Source: Ectocarpus siliculosus
Taxonomy: Eukaryota > Sar > Phaeophyceae > Ectocarpales > Ectocarpaceae
Reading direction: 5' to 3'
Length of the DNA stretch: 64,000 nt
Assembly: GCA_000310025.1 (NCBI GenBank)
Contig: FN649726.1
Location: forward strand, 1,324,088-1,388,087
Positions 4,114 to 49,489 of this stretch are shown one piece after another; the first letter of the stretch is position 1; each line of letters begins with the position of its first letter. Below the pieces are notes generated by a model, which ran no database searches, had not been told where the DNA came from, and saw only the letters and a program-made list of their open reading frames with translations. The position numbers were made by a program, and so were the translations under genes.

Positions 4114-7100
4114 GTCTCTCTCTGTCTCTCTCTTTACGCGTGTTGTTCAAGCTAGTTCTGTGCTCAGACTGTTTTTTTTCGTGGTGGTGGGAAGGTGGCG
4201 GCGGGGTTGGTGGCGCCGATGCTGTCGGTGTTCCTTGTTTTCCGGCGAAGGGTGGTCATGTTGGTGGTAACGATTGGAGGTAGTGTCTCTTGACTTTCTT
4301 GTTGTTGTCGTTGTCGGCGTCGTTGTTGCTGTTATTCTTGTTCCATTGTTGCTGTTGCTGTACTGTTGTCATCTTGGTGTTGTCCAAGGCTCCCGCTGTT
4401 TATCGCTCCCGCCCTCACGTCCGTCTTTGGTTGAGTGTGTTGGACCAATATTTGTGATCGTGCTCCGCCCTTTTTTCTTACAAAGGTGCGGGTGGAGTCG
4501 GACTACACCGTGTACGGTGATGAGTGCAAGTTCGGGGGCGGCAAGGTGAGTTGCTGCTGCTGCTACTGTTCTCGGTGTCACACATGCCCCTTTGAACGTT
4601 CTGGAGTCCCTCACATCCATATGCCGTAGCTATCCTAATCGTCATTCAGACAAGGTAGTGAAGTTTTTCTACGTGGAAAATTGCAATTTGATCGCTATGT
4701 GTGTAGCTGCCGGGTGTCAAATGAAATGTTTATTTTGAGCTCTTCCTTGAACAGCGATTTGTTCTGCTGCTGTTGTGTAGGTGCTGAGGGAGGGGATGGG
4801 GCAGGCCACCGGCGTGGGGGCCGCGGAAGCGCTGGAGACCGTCATCACCAACGCTCTCGTGCTGGACCACACGGGCATCTTCAAAGCGGACGTGGGCATG
4901 AAGGGCGGGCTCATCTCCGGCCTGGGCAAGGCCGGCAACCCCGACGTCATGGAGGTATATTGCTGTTCTCTGCATTTTGCGTGGACCCGATAACCGTGAC
5001 CTGTCATAGAGGTACCGCCACCCCAAAACCCTGAACTATTTCCTCCAGTCTGGGTGAAGTCGGTGTCCATGATGTCACGGGGGCGCACTGCCCTAACCGT
5101 AGCTATTGTTTCCAGGCCTGGTCACACCGGCCACCATAACGTCATGGAGGTACATACCACCATCGTTTTGACACGTTGCATACATCAAATATCCGAGGTT
5201 CCAGTGAAGCTCGCGTTATTTTGAAGTATTGACTGCGGTGGAGAAAAGCAAGCTGGAAGAGAGGGGAAAGTAGGTTGCACCAGCAGTGGTGAAATTACCT
5301 ATTCAGGTTTCAAAGACGAAAGCCGATACCAGCAGTATGGGCAAAACACTGTTCATATTAGGATTATGCGAGAATGGAGGCATGTTAGTGTTTGTGGTCG
5401 CTGGCGTGATAGAGTTGTACGGGTCAGGCATGACTTGAGACGTCTCGTCGTTTCTCAAGGAATCGAGTCCATTTACGGAAGCAACGTACTATGCATGATT
5501 TCCTTCTATTAGCTGTTACAGAAGTATATGTAGTGTCCGAATATTTTTTGTTCGGCGTCGTTTTCTGCTCAAGGCGATAGTAAAAACACATGAACGCACT
5601 TCGTTCCTCCTTCGGCCCAAACCTATTATCTCATCAACCCATCTGGGGTTCAGGGAGTTACCCCCGGCATGACAGTTGGGGTGAACACCGAGGTTATTGC
5701 TGGCGAAGGCTTGATCATTACCACCGGAGGGATGGACGCCCACGTTCACTTCATCTGCCCTCAGATCTGCGACGAGGTATGTGTCCCGATGTTGTTGTTG
5801 CTGTTAGTGCTGGCGGACACTCGTAGCCCGTCTGAAAATCAGGCAAGCGGAGTTTTTTTGGTAGCGATGTGTTCGTTGTTGCTTGTTTTTCTTCTTGTTG
5901 CGGCCAGGGTTTTCTTGGAAACTGTGGTGTGTCAGCCTAGACAGAAGCCCGGCCAAGTTTTGACACCCTCCAATCCAGCCAACACTGACGTAGCTCGGAG
6001 GCGTGTGACTCGGTCTCCGTGTTGTCCTTGCTCGAAACGGGGAGAATCCGCTCTCCCGCCGATACACACACCACCGCCGTCGTAGCACAACAACCGCGCC
6101 CCGTTTTAATCGTGATCGGCGTTGCCTGGATGTTTGACTTGCGCTTGACCCCATGTTTAGGCGATCGCATCGGGACTGACGACCCTCTTGGGAGGAGGGA
6201 CGGGACCCGCCACGGGGACGAGAGCAACCACCTGCACCCCGCACCCCTCTCACGTACGTTAAGTATGTTGGCCATCTCTCCGTCATGTTCGTTGTTGTGG
6301 TTGTTGCTGCTGTCGTTGTCGTTGTTTCTGTTGTTCGTGGTGGTGGCCATCGATGATGATGATTACGGCGGTGTTGCTGTTGGTGCTTTGTCACTGCTGC
6401 TGTTTTTCGTGTCAAACGATGTTATCATGGTGACTACGTGCGTGCCCACGCTGTCCAATGCTGCTGAAGGGCACCGCGTTCTGGTGCCCTTACACGACAA
6501 ACCAGTTCGCTCGGGAAACCAAGTGAGGGCAGTTCCTGTGGCTCATGGCCACAGCTGCTGTGCTAGTGGCTGCTCGAGGCTTGTGATGTGTTTCACGTCA
6601 TTCCCCACCCCCTCTAAGTAATCGCCACCTTCGGGAGGCCTATTTTATTTATTGTTGTGTGGATTTCTGCCGCTTGTACAGCATCCACCATGAAAAGGTT
6701 TTGTTCCGCGAATTTTCGTCGGATTAGGCCCTCATGCTCTCCTCCGCCTACAGCTTAACCTGGAGTGATATTGGTAGGATGAACTTCACCGTCGGCGCGA
6801 ATTGCGCCCCCAACACCTCAAGAATCTTGGTGTCTGGTTCGATGCTTGTCTAGTCCGCGAGAGTTCAATGACGTGCTTCGTCCGCGCTCTGAAGGGGGGG
6901 TTCGCCAACTTCCCCTCCCTGTACCCCCCCCAAAATGAACCTACCTACCGCCTTCACGTCTCTCTCTTTCTCTCGCATGTGTTGTGCATTTTTTTTCGTG
7001 TGGATCTCGACCCGGGCGACACAGATGAAGATGATGCTCCAATCCACGGACGCTATCCCGATGAACTTCGGCTTCACGGGCAAGGGGAACACCTCCAAGC

Positions 7101-10100
7101 CGGAGGGGCTCAAGGAGGTCAGTTAAACGCCAACGCGGCTGACTACTGCTGTCTTTGTGTGCGCTGTAGGCAAGTTGGGTGGGACACTACCATTAGTGAC
7201 GAAACGGGCGCGCGCGTGCACGTTGGCGAATCAGAGGGCGTGAACCACGTACCCAGGACGATCCACTCATCAGTTTGCCAAACCTAATACTGTCGGTGCA
7301 AGGTCGTGTCTCTCGGGCGTTGTTGACAATGGCAACCGGGGCTTTTATCAAGCTAGCGCCCTGAACGTGCGACCTTCTGGCCTTGGCGTATTTGTGCCAG
7401 GCAGCCCGACGTGTCCTATTCGGTGTTGAAAGGATGGGGTTGGGCGATGGAGGTCATGTTTTTCCGAAGAAGGGTGGGGATGTATTGTGACCGATTGAAG
7501 CAGTCGGTGGTGGGAGTTTTTGGGTGTAGTATAAGCCGACGGTGCCGCTCGAATTCTGTTGCAGTTGCTAAACAAGAGGTTACACAATTTTCACGTTAAC
7601 ACATAATGCGAGGTCCTCCAAACTGGGACGCAGCGTACATTCAAATTGTGATTTTTTGACAATCTGCAAAGCACGTTTCATTTTCTTGAACATGGGTTTG
7701 TTCGTACGGAAACGTTCTAGTAGCCATCGTCCAACCGGAAAGCACCGCGCAACATACTCCAATGCGTAATGAAACCGAAGCCGAAAGACTCTCGCAGTCG
7801 AAAACTGGGTCGCACCCCACGCCCTACGCTGCTGTTGTTGTTGTCGTCCTTGTTGTTGTTGTTGCAGATCGTGGAGGCCGGTGCGGTGGGCCTCAAGCTG
7901 CACGAGGATTGGGGCACCACCCCCGCCGCGATCGACTGCTGCCTCACGATCGCGGAGGAAACCGACATTCAGGTATGTGTGTACCGCGAACCAATCTCGG
8001 CGATGGTCAGCGGTCATGATTTTTGTGTAGGCTTGCTTGGGTGTGTGACAACACGGAGCAGAAAATCTTCATTTGGCTGCCCATTAAGTCGCCTGTTCGT
8101 GGGCTCAGTTGTTGTGATAGATAGGCGTCGGTACTAAACGTACGCGTAGAACACGTTGGGGTCGCGAACGGACGGACTCTCGGATACACGAAAAGTCGGA
8201 GCACACCAAGATTTTTTTTTACCATCTCTACGGGATCCTGCGCCCACCTCTCCGGCGTGGAGGCGACATCACGCGCCATCAAGAATTCTTCACAAATTTT
8301 CGCTTGTGCTGACTGCAAAACTAGGTCACGATTCACACCGACACGCTAAACGAGTCGTGCAGCCTGGAGGGCTCCGTGGCTGCCTTCAAGGGCCGCACCA
8401 TCCACACGTACCACAGCGAAGGGGCGGGCGGGGGGCACGCGCCCGACATCATCGCCGTCTGCGGGGAGCCGAGTGTCATCCCGTCCTCCACGAACCCGAC
8501 CAGGTGAACACAATAAAATGAAGTACTACACATGGGCGCGGTTGTTGCTTTTGTTTCGTTTGGATAATTGAGGTGCTTTGCCATGCGTAGTGTTATACCG
8601 TACCAGTGAAGGCATACGTTCCCAAGCTTTACGTGTATGGTCAGCATCCTTAATTCTTACTTGTAACAATTTTTGTTTTCGTTTCTATGCCATACCAAAA
8701 AAAAAGAAAAAAGTTTGTTGTCTCCCCCGAGTCACTGGCGTCTCTCTTCGGGCCCGTAGTGTTCCAAAGGGTGAACTTTCTCTGCCCAAGTCGTTCGTTG
8801 CTTCTAGTTGTTGACAGCAGTGTTCAGAGTGCGATTCATCCCTGAAACCGGCTTACACCACAGATCACCGCATGGGATCTACTGGCACAAATATTCAAGT
8901 TTTTTTGTGCTTCGTTGAAATGAACCCCAGCTGTTCCGCGTTAGCCTCTCAATATCGTTCTAGTTCGCTGTTGCGATCCCCGGTTCACCTCGCCGCGGTT
9001 CCACGCGGTTCCCGTAAACAGATGTACAGCACTCCTTTGTTGATGTCGATGGTCGCAGTTCCCCTTAGAAACTATGGTGATTATTTCACGTTTGCCTTTA
9101 TTTCGCTGTGTTTTTTTTGTTTCCTCTACCACCACCGCGAAGACCGTATACGACCAACACCATCGACGAGCACCTGGACATGCTGATGGTGTGTCACCAC
9201 CTGGACAAGGGGGTACCCGAAGACGTAGCCTTCGCCGAGAGCCGCATCAGGTATGCGGCCAACTTTCGCCCCCCAACCCTCCCCCCATGAAGTCGCCCGG
9301 TTCTGCCACCTATCATAGGAGAGACCTCTCGCCGCAAGGCTGTCCTGCAAGCGGTTCTCGGTGACCTGTTTGTGGGAATCACCGCTTGGTGCTGTGAGAG
9401 CCTGGTCGGCGAAACCCCCCAAGACCTTGTAAAGATGCCCTATGGGGGTCTATGGTGTTTCGAAGATTGTGATGATATGGTCTGGGTGGCCCGACTCAGA
9501 AACTGTTGAGCTTTGCCCCAGACCTCTCCCTTGCCCCTCTTCCCCAGTTACCCCTCCTCCTCTCACTTCCCTCCTCCTCTCGTTGCGTGGTTGTTGGACC
9601 AGTAGAGGATGAAGGCTAGGGCGCTTGCCAAGAATTGTATGCTATTCGACCACTTATCAACACCGTCGAAAATATTTGCCTCTATCTCATGAACAATTTT
9701 TTTCCCGTGGCGCCATCAGGACGGAAAGCACAACACAATTATGTCGCACCCTGCTGTGAAAGACGGAATGCTATTGTGCCGCAGTGCGATTTTAAATAGT
9801 CCCGTCTCTCATCCCATCCCGTGTCACATCAAGCCATGACGCAAGGTTCCCTATTTTCCCACAAGTTCCATATCATCCTTAACCATTGCCACACCAACCG
9901 TTTGTTTTGTCTACCGGTTTCGTTGTTGAAGGGGGGAGACGATCGCTGCGGAGGACATCATGCACGACATCGGGGCCATTAGCGCCATGTCATCTGACTC
10001 CCAGGCCATGGGCAGGGTGGGCGAAGTGATCACTAGGACATGGCAGACAGCGGACAAGGTGATGAGAAGTCGTGCGCTCCAGTACTTGCACGTCAAGTAG

Positions 10101-28666: not shown

Positions 28667-31600
28667 CTACGAAAATTCGGTCAAAAAAGACCCCGGTGAA
28701 GACAAGCACTTCCGGCGCGTTGGTCTTGGCAACTCCGAGCGTGTGCACGGGCGGGTCGCATTCGCCCTCGCTCGCTTACTTGTGGGTGGTTCTATATTGC
28801 TGCTTGCGCCCACCGCGGCGCGTTTCGTACGCGCTGTGCTCGCGGCGTTGGAGCTACCGGTCTGGTTCTCCGCAAACTTCGAGCCTAGCCTGCGCGAAAT
28901 GCTTCGAGTCCTTTCGCTCGACGCCGGCGAGCTGTGCTGGCCCGCTGCGGCAGTTTCTAGCCCCATCCTGCTAGCGGTGCTCGAGGCTTGTGCTTGGCGA
29001 GCGCTGCAACGGTTTCTTCCACTGCTGCTGGTTCCACCGCTGTTCGTCTCCACGCTGGGTGGTGTCCGGCCGCTCGAGGGGGCGATGTTCGAGGGGGCGA
29101 TGTTTTCGACCTCCTCGCCGTAGCCGTGTCCGTTGTCAGGCAGAAGCCTTGCTCTCTTGGGCAGCCGCTCCCTTCCATGGGCATCCTCAGCAGGAGACGG
29201 CGGCGGCGGCGGCGGCGGCGGCGCGCGACGTTGTCGTGCCGAGGTCCCAGCCGACCCCCCGCAGCCATCGCGTGCCTCCGCGTTCGACCCTGTCTCTACC
29301 GCCACCCCCGAACGGGCAGCACCACACTGTTGTTGTCCTTCCTCGTTCTCGCGCGATGGACCCGTGGTGCGGCCCGTCGAAGGCGAGCCGCCGCCGCCGC
29401 CACCGCCGACGTCTTCCCTCGGGCTCTTCTCCTTCGACACTCGCTGGCTTTGTGCCGCCGTTCTTCCCCCCGAGGAGGGCGGCGAGGCTTTGGCGACCTT
29501 TCTGCAAGAACGACCGCCGCTGGTGGTCGCCAGGCTTCTGGCGGCGCGGTCGCCTGGACACGGGCCGGCCGCTCCTCGGACCGACGCGACCCAGCCCGCG
29601 CTGGCTTCGAGCAGCGCCAGCGCGCGCTTCTGCCTCTTCTCCTTCTTCCGCTCGTCGATCTGCTCTTGCTCGCTCGTCGTCGCGGATGGGGGAGAGGGCG
29701 CGGTCCCGATCTCGCGCGGTGGAGCAGGACGGGTCAACCGCTGTTGTTGCGGATCGGTGTCCGGCTTGTCGTCGCCGCGTTTCGGCGGGGAGCGCGAACT
29801 ACCGGGGGCTTCAGGCACCCCGCCCGTCCCCCCGCGTCTCACCCGCAGGTCCATTCTCCGTGCCGCATCGGGCGACGAAGATGAGGCGCCGCCCACCACG
29901 GAGCTTGAATTTTCTCCCCGGGAGCCGCGGGTGCCGCGCCGTCGCCCGGTGCGCGGTGTGGACGACGTCGACGTGGGCGAAGATGACGCCGACAACGGGG
30001 GCAACTCGTCCGGCCCTTGAACATCATGCTCCGGCGATTCGGCCGGGCATACCGAGCTCTTGCTGCTGCTGTCCTGCTTGCTGCGGCAGTCCGCTAGGGA
30101 GGACGGGACGCTCGCGACAGACGTTGCCGGCGTGTCGGCGACAGGGGAGCCTGGTCTTCGATGGTCCTTCCGGCTGTCTCCGTTCGGCGGACAAGTCCCA
30201 CGCATGAATCTCGGTGGCGCTTGTCGACACTCTCCTGGTGCTCCTGGTTCGCTGCTGCAAAGAGCCACCCCGCTCGGCTGTTCCAGCTTCGGCCGGAGGC
30301 GTGGCGAGCCCCGCGAGGCCCTCGCGCAGCCGCCGCCGCCGCCGCCGCCGCCGCCACCTCCGGTCGCTTCTCGCAGCCCGGAGGGAGAGATCGCTCCTCC
30401 TTCCAAGACCGAGTCTTCCTTCTTCGCCGTGGGTGCCTCCCGCTCGCCTTCGCGGCTTGACGAGACAGCGCTGCCCTGTCGGCGGCCTGACGGGGGGCTA
30501 CCTGTACCCAGGGCGATAGGATTTTGGTCGTTGTGTTCCCCGCATCCCTGCGGCGCCTCGCTTCCCGCCACCGGCGGAAGGAGGGGCTCCTCACCACCCC
30601 CCTCTTCGTGGCCTTCCTTCGTAGCCGGTCCCGGCAACGCCGGCGACACGGCGGTACTGTCGCGGCCGGCGACCTCCGCTTTGGGTGTCGGGTACGCTGC
30701 CGTTCGGCCCGGAGCTGTATCGCTGACGACGCTCGAGTCGCCCTCCGCACCCGTCCAGCTCTCAAACGCGAGCAGCGCCGCAAAGTTAGGGTCCGCCTCG
30801 ACGGCAGCCGTGTGCCGATCACTAGCGCAGTGCTGCGGGCAAGACATGACATGACGGGGATACAGCATAAGGATTTGTCGTTAGAAGAGAATGTGTAAAG
30901 AACACGGGCATTGAATCGCAACATCACTAACAGCAAGTCCGTTCAAGTACGGAGAAGCCAGTGCAGCATCGTACAGGCAGGCCTGACGTGCGACGACGTG
31001 TTTCGTTTGGAGTGTGGAGAGGGAAGGCGTGCCTAGGGTCAAGGGCATAGACTGAAACGAGGATACAATGCGGTAAAGCAGCAGAGCAATCACACCGTGA
31101 ATCCCCTGGAATTTGCGAGGCGAGAAACGTGGCCTACCAAATCGTACGTGCGCCACCCTCTGCCATCGAAAGACGAAATACCCACATCATTTTGTCTGCA
31201 CCCAACATGCATCAAGTTGCCAAAAACGCCTCAGAGTAAAGAGAGGTAACCCCGAAGCCGGTGACTTTGGAAAAAGCAGACGCCCAATAGATCGGGCAAA
31301 CAACGACAAAGCTATGTAGCTCTTGCAAGACACGTGTCTACTATGCTCCTGCAGCACGCCGCGCCATTGCTCACAAGCCTAAACCCTCGATGCCGACACC
31401 ACCCATCGAAGACCACCCGCTCTCCGCCCAAAGGAAGGGGAAAGCCGGGATCCTCAACGTTGCAGATGCACTCAAGACTCTTTTGTGTCTGCAATCCCCA
31501 CCCCGTCCACTAACCTCCGACATGGTTCCGATGTACTGGATCTCGCAGCACTCGCACCAGCCTCCCCGGCGGGGCTTCTGCGAGCCGGCCGGCGGCATTC

Positions 31601-41946: not shown

Positions 41947-44900
41947 ATGTCTTCAGCTGCAGCTGGGGGCTCGCGTGCCCTTCACTGGGTAAGATGGTTT
42001 GATTTGTAGTGTGTATACGCCCCCCCCTGACAGCAACAATCGGCGCTGCTTGCTGTGGAATCGGTCCGCACGTCCTGCGGCTTGTGTCACCTCATCATGT
42101 TCACGTGTTTCTCGAGCCTCCCTGGCGGGAGTGTCTAGAGCAATACCTGATCAAGCCATTTGAAGGGACGACTACGCTCGTTAAGATGCCGGTTGAGTCC
42201 TCACGACTGATATATCGCTGAGTTTCCTGCACTTCGATGGCAGCAGCAGCGCTCTCCTCCTGGTCAATATCTTTCTCGGATTTGACGACAAAAGCGTGAC
42301 TCCACTTGTAGCAAGAGTTGCGGTGGTGGTGCTGCTGCGACAACGGCTGCCCACGTGTGATGCGGCCAAGCAAAGCAGCGCGTTCTTGGTGGTTATAGCC
42401 CTCTGCTTCCCTCGGGGTTTAACTGTTACCGGACGCTGATGGTGCTTGTCGGATCATGCCTACGGCTCGCAACTGCTAACATCCACTAGAGGTGACGGCA
42501 TAGAAGAACAGCCCGCGTACCGTGCGTGTCTTTCGTGTTGCTGTTGTCTTCCGGCACCCGTCTAAAGGTGACAGCAGACAGCCCGCGTGCCACTTGCTGT
42601 GTTGTTGTTGACTTGCTGCACCCGCCGCGGTGTAGCTCTGTCGCGGTATATTGTGCGCTCGGAATCTATTTGCCACGGTAGATGACTAGCCTCGATAAGG
42701 CAGATCACGCTGCTAAAGATGTGACCATTCCAATAGAGCGACCGAGTCATTATACAACATTCAGAACGCAGAACTCGAAAAGTTGTTGCGTGTTGGCTCC
42801 GAATACAAAACTCCGTGATGCTTCTCTTTACCCACCACCACACCCATAAACAGCCCTCAGTTTCCAAACTTGGTGCTGTTCTGTTGTTTGCCAACGCTAC
42901 ATACGCCCAAGTGCTAATTGATTTCATCCGACGGTTCCGCTACTCTCGATGTTAATCGAAATGCCTCGATGTAAATTAGAATGCCAGTGTCCGTCCTTCA
43001 GGCAGCAGTAGAGAAAGAACCCTGCTGTCAACACCAGCGCGGCTTACAGTACGACACGGACGGCGCTGCTGAACCGTTTCAGACCGTGGCCCCAACTATG
43101 CGTGCACGTGTAACCCTGTTGTATGCATAGTCTACAAGCGTGACCGCGGGACACCTACCATGTAGCAGCGGTGGTGTATTGCGGGACACGTGTGCGCGTG
43201 AGTGTGTGGTCCAACCATTCGCGCCTGGCCCTACAGTAGTAGTCCCCCCGCATTTCTCGTTTAAAGCGAAAGAGATGATTTTGTTGTGTCACAGCATGCA
43301 TACGAAAAATAGGAAGGCGAGTAGCACCAATTTCGCCCTCAAACCATTCCCACACCCCTTCACCGCAACCCCCCCCCCCCCCGCCCTGCGCGCGCTTGCA
43401 TCCCCCCTACATAACACAGGTACTCAAGATCGGAAGCTTGAAGAAGTCCATGACGTTCTTCGAGAACGTTCTCGGCCTGAAGGTGCTTCGGCACGAGGAG
43501 TTCGATGAGGGCTGCGAGGCCACCTGTAACGGCCCCTACGGCGGTACGTTTGCCTTCGTCGCTCTCACTGCCTCGGAAAAATCCACCGTACTAGCGCCAA
43601 GTCAATTTCTTCAATCTGCGCACTGCTGTGATTGCAACAAGCGCTCAATCACACCGTGGAAGGAGTAGCCCCAGCTTCCGCTCAGAGCGTCTCGATTGTT
43701 TCCGAAAAGCGAACATTGTCCGGGTGGGACGGGGCTTCTACTAGTGTTCCTGGTTTGAAGCAATTTCGGGTTGGTGATGACATCTCTCGTGTTGGAATCC
43801 TTTTATGTAGTCGGCCTCAACAGTCAGTACGGTATTCCTTCGCCATTTCTGCGTTCCCGAGACGGACAGGAATAGAGACGGAGATGAGAAAGCCGAACCT
43901 CCGCAGTCGTTTTATTCCCAACCATGAATACAAATGGAGATAGATCCGGAACTGGTTTAATTCCCCACCATTTGACACTTATCTCGCCGCCGACAAAGAC
44001 CAACATCAGCCTTACTAAAACCAAGGTAAAAATAAGTCCTCCAACCGTTTCATATTTGATTGCTGCCACTGCCGTCGCCGTGCACGCGCGCATGCAGGGG
44101 CGTGGTCCAAGACGATGATCGGGTACGGACCGGAGGAGGAGGGCTTCGCCCTGGAGCTCACGTACAACTACGGCATCGACGGCTACAAGAACGGGGACGA
44201 CCTGCAGTACATCTGCCTGCAGCTGGACGTGGAGGCGACCAAGGCTAAGGCGGAGGCCGAGGGTAGGTAGACAGCGCGCGTGTTGGCGTGTACACCACCG
44301 AGATATGGAAGATATCTCTTACTTTATGTAAGCCACCGAAGTATGGAAGATGTCCATGAATGGGGTGCGTTTGTTAGAACGGGACTATAATACTGCGGTG
44401 TTGGTGCAAAGAGGGCGGGAGAGACCGGGAGGGGGGGGGGTGTACGACCGGGAGGGGGGGGGGGTCTATCGCTTGTTGCTTCCCTAGGTCGTGTTTGGCC
44501 TTGGGTTTGTCTTCAGTGGCCACGCTTTCGTAAGTTGGGGCACCGCGGTGATGGTGGAGCAAGAGCGGGCGAGGCTAAGATATTGCCTGAGCGTGAGCCG
44601 GGGTAGACGTCGAGTGTGATTTGAGGCTCGTCCTCATGGCACGGATATGTTGGTATCGCCTCTCCACCTGCGTCGTCTTGTCTGAGATAAGGTGCTAAGG
44701 TTAGTCACGCTTCGAATTGCTCGCATAAAATTGACCCATCAACTCGAAAGGTTGGCAACGGTAAGCAGTTATTGCAATGTTGGGCTAAAACTATGAAACC
44801 AAGTTGGATGAAGCATACCCATACGGGAAAAGCGAAAGATAGGTGTCTTTTGGCTGGAAGAGACATATTCCTGTGGTAAAAGTATTAGTATTGTTCAGGA

Positions 44901-47900
44901 AACTTGCGAGCCAACCTCGAACGATGGGCGGAAAGGGGCGCAGTGACCAGGAAGGATAGGTAGCTGAGGGGGGCGGAACCAACAAATGACCTGCTACCCA
45001 TACGCCAATCCAACCATGCACCGACTCTACCCAATCTTACACACAATATTTCACCAACGCACCAATAAAAACGAAACCGAAATGCGAAGGTTACGCCTGC
45101 GCGGCGGCCAGCGGCGGAGGCGTTCTCATCTCCGGGCCGGACGGTTACAAGTACAAGGCGATCCCTTCCATCGAGGGGAGGAAGGAGCGGTTCGTTTCGG
45201 TGGGGCTGAAGGTGTCGGACCTGCCGGCGTCCACGGCGTACTGGTGCGATCTGCTCGGCATGTCCAAGTTCTCGGCGCCGGCGCCCGTGAGCGAGCCGGG
45301 GGATGGTGTGGGCTTGTTGAGCGAGACTGTGGGCTACGGCGAGGAGCAGGTGACAGCACGTAGACTATATTTTGGTGTGTTTTTTTTTGCTGGCGTTTGA
45401 CCCATGTTTATGGTCGCCAAATCTTTGAAAAAAATCTTCAAATGTTGTCAAACACTTGCGCGCGAATATCTGCCAGAGGAACATTTGAGTACCGTTTTTA
45501 TGGGCAAAAAAATCTTTATCGTGTGGTTTTCTCGAAATGCATCGCACGTGCGGCGGGAATCGTGGTCTACTGCTACCAAACGATTTGTGACAGACAAACC
45601 ACAAATGCGTCATGGAAACTGAATGTAACGAGCTCGCAAAGGGCTCCCCACAACCCTTGATGCACTGAGCTGATGCTGTGCCCGCCAATATGTGGCGATA
45701 GCGCTCCGGGCGTGCGAGAAAAAATGTTCTCGGTGTCAAGAAGAGACCAAAACGTGCGTCAGCGCTTCCCAACGGCAAAAAGTCGGCCGCTTGAGAGGAC
45801 ACGTGAGTACAAAACTATCCAGCTCTCGTCCTCTAGACCATCGATTCATGTTTTGTCTTCTTGGGTGTCTTCTCCATCAACGACTCTCATCCGGTTGTGC
45901 GTGGGTTGGCAGTGGCCGCGCTCAGCCGGCAGGGAGGCACATCTTTGTGCTCGCAAAGTTGTGGACACAACGTTTTTTTCGGTCTATTTTTTCACTTGAA
46001 TATAGAGGGCTTGTTCCTCCGTCCCAAAAAAGACTTTTTCAACACATCGAATTCACAGCGACGCGCCTCCCTGCCTGTTGAGTACGTCCACTGCTGAACC
46101 ACGCACACCCGGATGAGAGCCGTTGATGGAGAAGACACCCAAGAAAAAAAAACATGAATCGATGGTCTAGAGGACGAGAGCTGGATAGTTTTGTACTCAC
46201 CTCTCCTCTCAAGCAGCCGACTTTTTGCCATTCGGAGACACAAACCACGCTTTCTCCGTGCCCTCCAAACCACCCCTGTCTGTTTGTTTTTTTGTGCACG
46301 CTTGACGAGCTCCCGCCATGTATCAGCCGGCAAAACATTGACACGGTGACTCTAGGGTTGTCCGGATCCCTCTCTGAGCTTGCTACGTTGAGTGTGCGCT
46401 GCGCAGTGGTTGGTGTTTAGGACGGAAGGGGCTGTCGGCTACTAATCTCGCCGCTCTTGGGAAACATTTTCGCGACCTGCCCCATTTCAAAATGTTTGAG
46501 AATATTTTGCCGAAGATTTTCTCCCATAAACAGTGAAACAAAATGTTCATCCGCAAATGTTTGAAAATATAAACATTTTCGCAAAGATTTGGCGACCATA
46601 AACATGGGTCTTCGGACGATTTTTTTTGTGTCCTTTTCATTTTTACGTTTGTTTGGTTTCTAGATATGTGTACCCTTCCTTTGTGTTTTTTAGTGCTAGC
46701 GCTTGGAGGACTCTCTCTGGGTCCTTCCTATTGTACGTTTATTTGATTTTAGGAGAGGTTGTAGGGTATAGTTAGTATGTGACCACGGAAGGGGCCCGCA
46801 TGAGTTGGGTAAGTACAGATGTCAGAAGGTACTGAGCGGAGACCGGAACGGTTTTTAATGTGAAGACAGTAACCATCCGTGTTTTGCGGTTGTACTCGCG
46901 TTGCAGATTTTTATGTTATCTCCAGCAGAAGCTTCGTTTGGAGCCCTGTCTTGGCAGACGACAACTACCTGATTGTCTCTTCAGTTCCCACCCACCCCCC
47001 GGCGCCCCCTTTTCCGTTTTGTTTGTCAATGCGGTGATCCTCATTAAAAAGCGAGCACCACATTGTTGTGTTGGCCCCAAAGTTTACTCACTTCTGCCTT
47101 GCCGGGACCGCGTCGAACGAAACGGTGCATGTCGGTGACTACCTATCCCAACCCCTTCGACCCTGCAGCGCCGCTCCCGTGCCTCTCACCGTAATATACC
47201 GACCCCCCCCCCCCCCTTTTCCGCCCGCCGACCGCCGACCGCCGACTCTGAGCTTAGGTCAAGCTCGATTTGCTGCAGGCTCCGGGCGCGGAGAAGACTC
47301 CGATTGACCACGGGTTGGCCTCTGGCCGCATCGCGTTCGCGTGCGACCTCGTGCCCCCCATCCACTCGGAAGCGGCGGCCGCGGCCAGCGGCACCGTGAT
47401 CACGCCGCCCTTGACCCTGCCCACCCCCGGGAAGGCGGACGTGGTGGTCACCATCCTCGGCGACCCCGGTGAGAGAGGGGACCGCCTTCGCGAGGGTTTT
47501 GTTATCAATCTATGAAAGAGGGGGGGTCGTAGCCCTATGCATGATAGAAGGTTTTTAAGTGGTAGTGCGGAATGTACTTGTGTGCCGGGTGTCTGTTTTG
47601 AGGCCGGCTAAATGCATTATGCAGTTTTGCCACGGACGGTACACACATGCGCAGGGTGTGTCGATTGCACTCTTTCGGTTCCATTTCTACTTGGGGGCGA
47701 AGACAAATTTGAACAATCTCTGCTGTCATCTTCTGCGTGATTTCTTCAGGCGATGTGAACGCGCCCTGAGTAGTACTCCGCCCAAAGTATTTTTCGAGTT
47801 GTTCAATAAACCACTCCTTTGCTCCACATTTACACATCGAGTGTACTTTGGATCAGGAGGCTCGACCTCTCTGTCCAGTGGACCTCTCTGTCGAGTTTCC

Positions 47901-49489
47901 TCCGCCCCGTCCCCTATCAGGGGACCCCGCGGACTAGAGTATATGTTTTTGCGTTTGTAGTCCCTGTAAAGCTGGCACATTTGCACTGATCGGCCAATAT
48001 GCAAGCGCGGCTTGATGCGAATACAAAGACACATCCAGTCGGTGGCGACACGAAGCCTTCCCAACCCCTTTTCATTTTTTCTCTTTCAGTGAACGTTGAA
48101 CGGAGGTTTTGGCATTTGGCAGGTTGTTCTTTCAAATCTCGCAGCACTCTTACACACCCACCATCCCTCCTGTGCATGCAACTAACCCCGCTCGAAAACA
48201 TACGCATGGTCCCTGCAGACGGCTACGAGATCTGCTTCGTGGAAGCCGTCGCCTTCTACCAGCTGGCGGAGCCCAAGTACGACGTCATCGACTTCGAGTC
48301 CAGGGCCACAAGGGGCGGGGACGGCGCCGCCCCCCCCAAGAGCGAGAAGCTGCAGCACGCCGCCGGCGTTACCGCAGCGGTGACGACGCCGGAGGAGGTG
48401 GCCGAGGCGGTCGCCGCGGCGTCCGGCGACGGACTGGTCTTGTTGGACTTTGGCGCGGGGTGAGTGAACACAGCAGTGTCGTGCGTGGAAACGTGTTGTG
48501 GAGAGCTACTATACTACTCTACTCACCCGTTCCGGTGCCTCACAAGGTTTGTTTTGTTTGGCTTTTTCGGTAGGCCGGAGTCTTGTGCGTGTGTGTGTGT
48601 TTTGCGGTATTTATTGGAGCGTCGAATATGATGACGGTGGCCGAGGCGCTTGCGAGGAGGGGGGCGGGATGATGAGGCGCGATAGAATCGGTCTCGATGT
48701 CGATGTTGTAGGTTTGTAGACAAAAGCAGCAGGCTTGTCTCGGTTGGTTTGGTAAGACTGTTTGCTGCGCGGTTTTCAAGGTCGCAATCACCACGTCTAA
48801 AGAGTCGCCGGGGGCCAAAAGGAGAGCGATAGATTATATCTGCGGCAGGGTTGTGATGAATAGGTATGATCATGACATGAACTGGACATATTCGGTCCTC
48901 TGCTTTCTGCCTGTTGAGTTGATATGACCCGTTCGTCGCTCGCCTTGGTTCCGGCCGAACGATTTACCGCGGTTGCCAACCCTCCTCTCCCAGATTTTGT
49001 ACGCCCGTACACAGCGGTGGAAATAGCCACAATCCAAGAAAGATACAGCCCCCGCCCCGAGTTTGTTAGTGTTTGAGCATCCTTTCCCCCGAGGTGTTCA
49101 CGCCCGATGAGGTCGACGCCTCTCACGCACACCGTCTCCTAGACTGTTGGCTGGTGAGTCTTATGAAATTACCGCCGCCGACACGAACGATCTCGCGGGG
49201 GGGCCTTGGCTAATCCCCCCCCCCCCTTGGCCTCTCCTTGCCCAGCTGGTGCAAGAACTGCAAGAAGATGGTGCCGGCCATCGAAAAGCTGGCCACGGGG
49301 CCCCTCGGGGAAAAGCTCAAGGTGCTGACGGTGGACATCGACGAGGCGGACGAGCTCGCGGACGAGTACGACGTGAGCGGCGTGCCGACCTTCGTGGCGC
49401 TGAGGGGCGGCAGGGGCGACAAGGCCGACGAGTACAAGGGCAACGATCCCGCCGCGTTGGAGGCCAAGATCTCGGCGTTGCTCGGGTAG
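41947..49489 (+). CDS. Glyoxalase (GLOD4-type, two VOC domains) fused to C-terminal thioredoxin, complete, 7 exons
   Basis: Exons: 41947-41988, 43420-43543, 44098-44262, 45090-45349, 47258-47468, 48219-48459, 49246-49489 (stop TAG); 428 residues, every junction in phase. The first exon, [14 protein letters not shown], supplies the conserved RALH start of GLOD4 proteins. Residues 1-295 carry two vicinal-oxygen-chelate domains: [24 protein letters not shown], then [17 protein letters not shown] and DGYEICFVE. After a low-complexity linker, about residues 320-428 form a thioredoxin domain with active site W349-C350-K-N-C353 and the cis-proline loop GVPTF at about 393-397. GLOD4 proteins are glyoxalase-related with no firmly assigned substrate. 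The fused thioredoxin suggests a redox-coupled role, which is inference. The thioredoxin N-terminal strand is encoded in the same exon as the linker, so the fusion is not an artefact of joining neighbouring genes. Confidence 0.95.
45399..46610. mobile_element. 1.2-kb fold-back (long inverted repeat) element in an intron
   Basis: The ends form a 29-bp perfect inverted repeat: GACCCATGTTTATGG at 45399 and CCATAAACATGGGTC ending at 46610. Homology between the two halves continues inward for much of about 550 bp; for example the AAAACTATCCAGCTCTCG block at about 45812 reappears inverted at about 46180. The central spacer is about 100 bp. No transposase is encoded. It sits in the intron between the exons at 45090-45349 and 47258-47468 of the glyoxalase-thioredoxin gene. 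Confidence 0.85.
46778..46868 (+). repeat. Dispersed repeat family A copy
   Basis: Starts TGTGACCACGG and ends GGAACGGTTTTTAATGTGAA followed by GACA. The same start and end bound the copies at 56098-56200 and 57353-57544 and, inverted, 58909-59006. The conserved ends suggest one transposable element family, possibly a short LTR or a SINE. The class is undecided. Confidence 0.6.

Follow-up and report, generated by a model that had tools for sequence, protein, structure and literature searches.

A predicted GLOD4-type protein with a C-terminal thioredoxin domain in the brown alga Ectocarpus siliculosus

Proteins that are fused in nature are classically suspected of working together, and GLOD4 and thioredoxins are each well known separately. 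A locus in the genome of the brown alga Ectocarpus siliculosus, where a thioredoxin sequence follows that of a GLOD4-type protein, raises the question of whether the two form one polypeptide, and of what the thioredoxin could do for its partner. The structure of GLOD4 is solved, yet excerpts of a 2024 article still describe it as a protein of unknown function (PMC11492116), and those of another article report that its knockdown in human cells leads to short cilia (PMC3689809). The window analyzed here is a 64,000-nucleotide stretch of contig FN649726.1 (positions 1,324,088 to 1,388,087, forward strand), which belongs to the assembly that was searched (189 Mb, 492 contigs).

Rebuilt from the DNA, seven exons of the plus strand (window positions 41947-49489) join in one frame into 428 amino acids and a stop, as a first-pass annotation of the window had proposed. 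Its span of 47258 to 49489 has to be extended: exons 5-7 lie inside it, but the gene starts at 41947, so that exons 1-4 fall outside. The gene is made up as follows:

41947-41988, plus strand: exon 1, with the ATG and residues 1-14, including H13; residues 8-14 are aligned with the beginning of GLOD4
43420-43543, plus strand: exon 2, VOC1, with EGCxxxC (C46, C50)
44098-44262, plus strand: exon 3, VOC1, with E75 within ALELTYNYG
45090-45349, plus strand: exon 4, in which VOC1 ends and VOC2 starts (YWCDLLGM)
47258-47468, plus strand: exon 5, VOC2 together with the larger part of GLOD4_C (SGRIAFAC...)
48219-48459, plus strand: exon 6, end of VOC2 (DGYEICFV), linker, and thioredoxin strand-helix-strand 1 (to LLDFGA)
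48460-49245, plus strand: intron 6, phase 2, interrupting the thioredoxin domain; a TGA is met on read-through at 48461-48463
49246-49489, plus strand: exon 7, WCKNC, the GVPTF loop, the C-terminal helix region and the stop TAG

The splices, which are inferred from the genome sequence, give six introns that all run from GT to AG, in phases 0, 1, 1, 0, 1, and 2. GC3 lies between 0.85 and 0.96 in exons 2-7 and is 0.50 in the 14 codons of exon 1, while intron GC ranges from 0.49 to 0.54. No targeting peptide is apparent by eye in the 428-residue protein. C-rich runs (43370-43395, 47203-47228, and 49216-49241) stand at most about 50 bases 5′ of three of the six acceptors. Intron 4 houses a foldback element (45399-46610), in which 35-nt inverted repeats (94%) flank a 183-nt inverted repeat (89%), and which looks like a non-coding transposable element. 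On the minus strand, a divergent open frame starting MPPSSRPLDGLVWPLVPNSKK runs from 41640 downwards, some 300 bases away from where GLOD4 starts, and a two-way promoter common to both is possible. Neither this frame nor a 737-codon stop-to-stop frame, also on the minus strand (28670-30880, GC about 0.61), has a Pfam match; none was found in four minus-strand frames of the window.

In the Pfam search of the 428 residues (cut-offs of 27 bits for GLOD4_C and 23.5 bits for Thioredoxin), Glyoxalase was found at residues 13-115, above its cut-off (family total of 51.6 bits over the whole protein), Glyoxalase_4 at residues 148-229, likewise above its cut-off (31.0 bits), and GLOD4_C (PF21701) at residues 220-283 (63.8 bits, profile positions 2-66 of 66). 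The best relatives in the PDB are GLOD4 structures (3zi1 and 9csj, of human origin), aligned over residues 8-285 with an E-value of 2e-60, and GLOD4 is also the top PDB match when VOC1 or VOC2 is searched alone. Judged by its two consecutive VOC domains, PF21701, and PDB similarity over both halves, the protein belongs with GLOD4. It has in common with the PDB protein both VOC halves, GLOD4_C, and five of the seven cysteines of the VOC part (C46, C50, C163, C226, and C273 align with cysteines there, C95 and C114 do not); such conservation need not imply redox activity. In the PDB protein nothing matches thioredoxin, whereas the algal protein is longer by about 140 residues that hold a whole thioredoxin domain. 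Human GLOD4 indeed ends soon after VOC2, as the first-pass annotation had stated, according to the PDB alignments and to the 313 residues given for isoform 1 in the excerpts of PMC11492116. The human layout, with nothing after VOC2, is not that of the algal protein, where a thioredoxin occupies residues 322-424; this layout does not define the Pfam family, and the extra C-terminal domain therefore makes the protein a variant architecture inside the GLOD4 family.

Kinship with glyoxalase I was also considered. The metal ligands of E. coli GlxI are H5, E56, H74, and E122. VOC1 is related in sequence to glyoxalases I of the two-domain type (5d7z, 6bnn) and to GlxI (1f9z), and alignment with 6bnn shows that it keeps two of the four ligand positions (H13 and E75), but the other two are occupied by Y93 and K133. 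Glyoxalase I identity was rejected on this account and, since the metal set of VOC1 is incomplete, methylglyoxal isomerisation is not supported. Likely counterparts of the two replaced positions are, we infer from the sequence, R221 and E271 of VOC2.

Behind VOC2, a linker of about 35 residues (about 286-321) leads to the Pfam Thioredoxin match (PF00085; residues 322-424, 65.7 bits, profile positions 4-102 of 103). The order first read from the sequence, two VOC domains and then a thioredoxin with WCKNC and GVPTF, is borne out by the Pfam matches and by the motifs at residues 349-353 (W349, C350, K351, N352, C353) and 393-397 (with cis-Pro P395). The classical thioredoxin active site is CGPC; CKNC stands in its place here, and the unit is therefore called a thioredoxin domain and not a classical thioredoxin. 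It resembles thioredoxin and PDI-type domains (PF00085; 2j23, 3idv, 8eky) in its full-length profile match, its WCxxC, and its cis-Pro loop, and differs from them in its CKNC and in its position C-terminal on a VOC protein. Both active-site cysteines (C350, C353), the cis-Pro loop, and the Asp344 position are kept, and the domain is predicted with good confidence to be catalytically competent.

Whether GLOD4 and thioredoxin are really one product depends on where one ends and the other begins. On the one hand, neighboring genes, or a dead exon, could have been wrongly read as one gene from the genome sequence. On the other hand, the intron cuts the thioredoxin itself: exon 6, which carries the end of VOC2, also carries thioredoxin strand-helix-strand 1, as had been claimed, and the profile match of exon 7 by itself begins only at position 28. 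A shuffle control agrees. With the real exon-6 tail in front of it, exon 7 reaches 68.9 bits across profile positions 4-102, whereas behind nine shuffled tails it reaches 53.4 to 60.2 bits, with profile starts at 24 to 29; the real tail thus exceeds each of the nine by 8.7 to 15.5 bits. A separate start codon for the thioredoxin part was looked for, and no ATG is in frame upstream of exon 7. The only methionines of the 428 residues are at 1, 25, 62, 168, and 356, and since none lies between 168 and 356 and no such ATG precedes exon 7, a CxxC-bearing thioredoxin cannot start alone from an in-frame ATG. Because an intron falls within the thioredoxin domain, split as it is across exons 6 and 7, a mis-join of neighbors was rejected, and a mis-reading of any such kind is scarcely credible; the fusion stands, and GLOD4 and thioredoxin are very probably one polypeptide. 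The same intron suggests another reading, in which the gene gives two products in a regulated ratio. Read-through of the exon-6 donor yields Gly348 and then the TGA at 48461-48463, so that a 348-residue GLOD4 without a working thioredoxin, its GLOD4 part intact, could be made beside the 428-residue fusion; chance readily yields such a stop, however, and the shorter form would end in a thioredoxin fragment, which makes this reading very improbable.

Searched against the assembly, the 428-residue protein hits 13 places, namely six of its own exons and seven weak matches, the best of which (E-value 9.7e-4) is a VOC match on contig C14, where a separate glyoxalase I-like gene was recognized by eye. 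GLOD4_C was found in one place of the 189 Mb; both searches were run exon by exon, and a heavily split second GLOD4 could escape them. As a marker, the RuBisCO large subunit had no match, and the assembly was scored instead for EsV-1-7 motifs (PF19114), which are expanded in brown algae and present in a related virus: 150 of 880 candidate places were scored and all 150 lay above the cut-off, as against none in 14 prokaryotic control genomes, which points to a brown alga as the most likely host.

A second attached thioredoxin with WCKNC lies outside the window, on contig C6 (locus L033; G000:C6:450000-459900, 4984-9765). Its exons, joined from the DNA, encode AAA_26 (PF13500, 58.3 bits), presumably dethiobiotin-synthetase-like, followed by a thioredoxin (69.5 bits) that is 41.7% identical to that of the GLOD4 fusion over 96 amino acids (E-value 3.6e-22 in a comparison of these two sequences only) and shares DFGAxWCKNCK with it. 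A DNA pattern for WCKNC has seven exact matches in the genome, against nine for its reversed control, and the two of the seven that lie in thioredoxin frames are precisely the GLOD4 fusion and L033. In both proteins the WCKNC thioredoxin sits behind another domain, but the partner of L033 is AAA_26 and its intron comes after the CxxC, whereas that of the GLOD4 fusion comes before. That L033 carries the nearest thioredoxin relative, as first assumed, is not supported: compared with the GLOD4-attached domain, a WCGPC thioredoxin on contig C2 reaches 42.0 and 37.4 bits (79.4 summed) and the C6 domain 40.8 and 36.6 bits (77.4 summed). Since the C2 thioredoxin scores equally high, a close relationship between the two domains with WCKNC is unsupported.

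Beyond this assembly, viral and prokaryotic collections were scanned with short peptide patterns, which reach mainly close relatives. The full protein gave five pattern matches in viral contigs and 45 in contigs of prokaryotic genomes, none of them confirmed. An alignment of two thioredoxins gave 21 matches in viral contigs, none confirmed, and at least 592 in prokaryotic genome contigs, of which at least five were confirmed (L036-L040). By eye, these five comprise a protein with WCGPC (L036), one with CPHC (L037), two TlpA-like proteins (L038 and L040), and a DsbD-like protein with WAGWCKNCK (L039), the only WCKNC among the five confirmed matches listed; no VOC domain was seen in any of their five frames. 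GLOD4_C had no match of any strength in five bacterial genomes, and in one bacterial phylum it was found in two of 294 genomes, in one of them right at the 27-bit cut-off. Among plasmids, tblastn with residues 1-293 returned 27 records, none covering 80% of the query, and among the 20 matches listed those with an annotation were all gloA. Phages had no megablast match to 47258-49489. The literature search revealed no VOC-VOC-thioredoxin fusion by title or opening of the abstract among the matches listed. The architecture is thus a GLOD4 variant that is new only within the viral, prokaryotic, and literature searches made; among brown algae, or in a wider range of organisms, it may be common.

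The explanation that we prefer, tentatively and at slightly below an even chance, is that the thioredoxin of this 428-residue protein would work as a dithiol reductase whose targets, in cis, are the cysteines of the GLOD4 part. The idea of the first-pass annotation, that the thioredoxin could regulate the VOC domains or reduce a substrate made there, is likewise tentative. In a single polypeptide made of VOC1, VOC2 with GLOD4_C, the linker of about 35 residues, and a complete thioredoxin, thioredoxin reductase would supply electrons to the attached thioredoxin, which would hold C46, C50, C163, C226, and C273 reduced, and the GLOD4 enzyme would thereby stay working under oxidative stress. That the thioredoxin acts in cis on the VOC domains is, taken by itself, conceivable and somewhat short of probable. 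Two points count against the proposal: the motif is CKNC in place of CGPC, and these cysteines are also present in the PDB's GLOD4, which lacks a thioredoxin in cis. A single-sequence AlphaFold model (mean pLDDT 34.5, pTM 0.24) is too poor to show contacts between the domains.

The thioredoxin could instead be a general reductase for which GLOD4 serves as an anchor or passenger, its targets being nearby proteins or small molecules. The WCKNC thioredoxin on the unrelated AAA_26 protein suits such a redox tag no less than it suits a purpose-made partner, and the linker between the domains also speaks for it; the GLOD4 part, however, retains its family residues and cysteines and therefore looks like a working partner, and close kinship of the WCKNC pair is unsupported by the summed scores of the C2 and C6 domains. 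This possibility is doubtful. Relatives of glyoxalase use thiol co-substrates, which favors another reading, in which the VOC site would form or consume an intermediate that is a disulfide or a thioester, and the attached thioredoxin would supply or regenerate the thiol co-substrate in place of glutathione. The incomplete metal set of VOC1 (H13 and E75 kept, with Y93 and K133) suggests a different reaction, and the function of GLOD4 is given as unknown in the excerpts of PMC11492116; nevertheless, thioredoxin is absent from the GLOD4 of the PDB, so that the reaction cannot require one in cis, and this reading is unlikely. Rather less likely still is that the lineage has a class of attached WCKNC thioredoxins on enzymes of unassigned reaction (GLOD4, AAA_26), with thioredoxin as the physiological thiol partner of the GLOD4 VOC site; its already low probability was lowered slightly because the WCKNC thioredoxins are not clearly mutual nearest relatives.

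The finding hints that the chemistry or upkeep of GLOD4 depends on protein thiols and, if the fusion is conserved, it would point to thiol/disulfide chemistry or redox upkeep for this protein. Given the second attached copy in the genome, the WCKNC thioredoxin is possibly a reusable module. Should the VOC site prove to have the attached thioredoxin as its thiol partner in vivo, the reaction of GLOD4 would be thiol-dependent in all eukaryotes.
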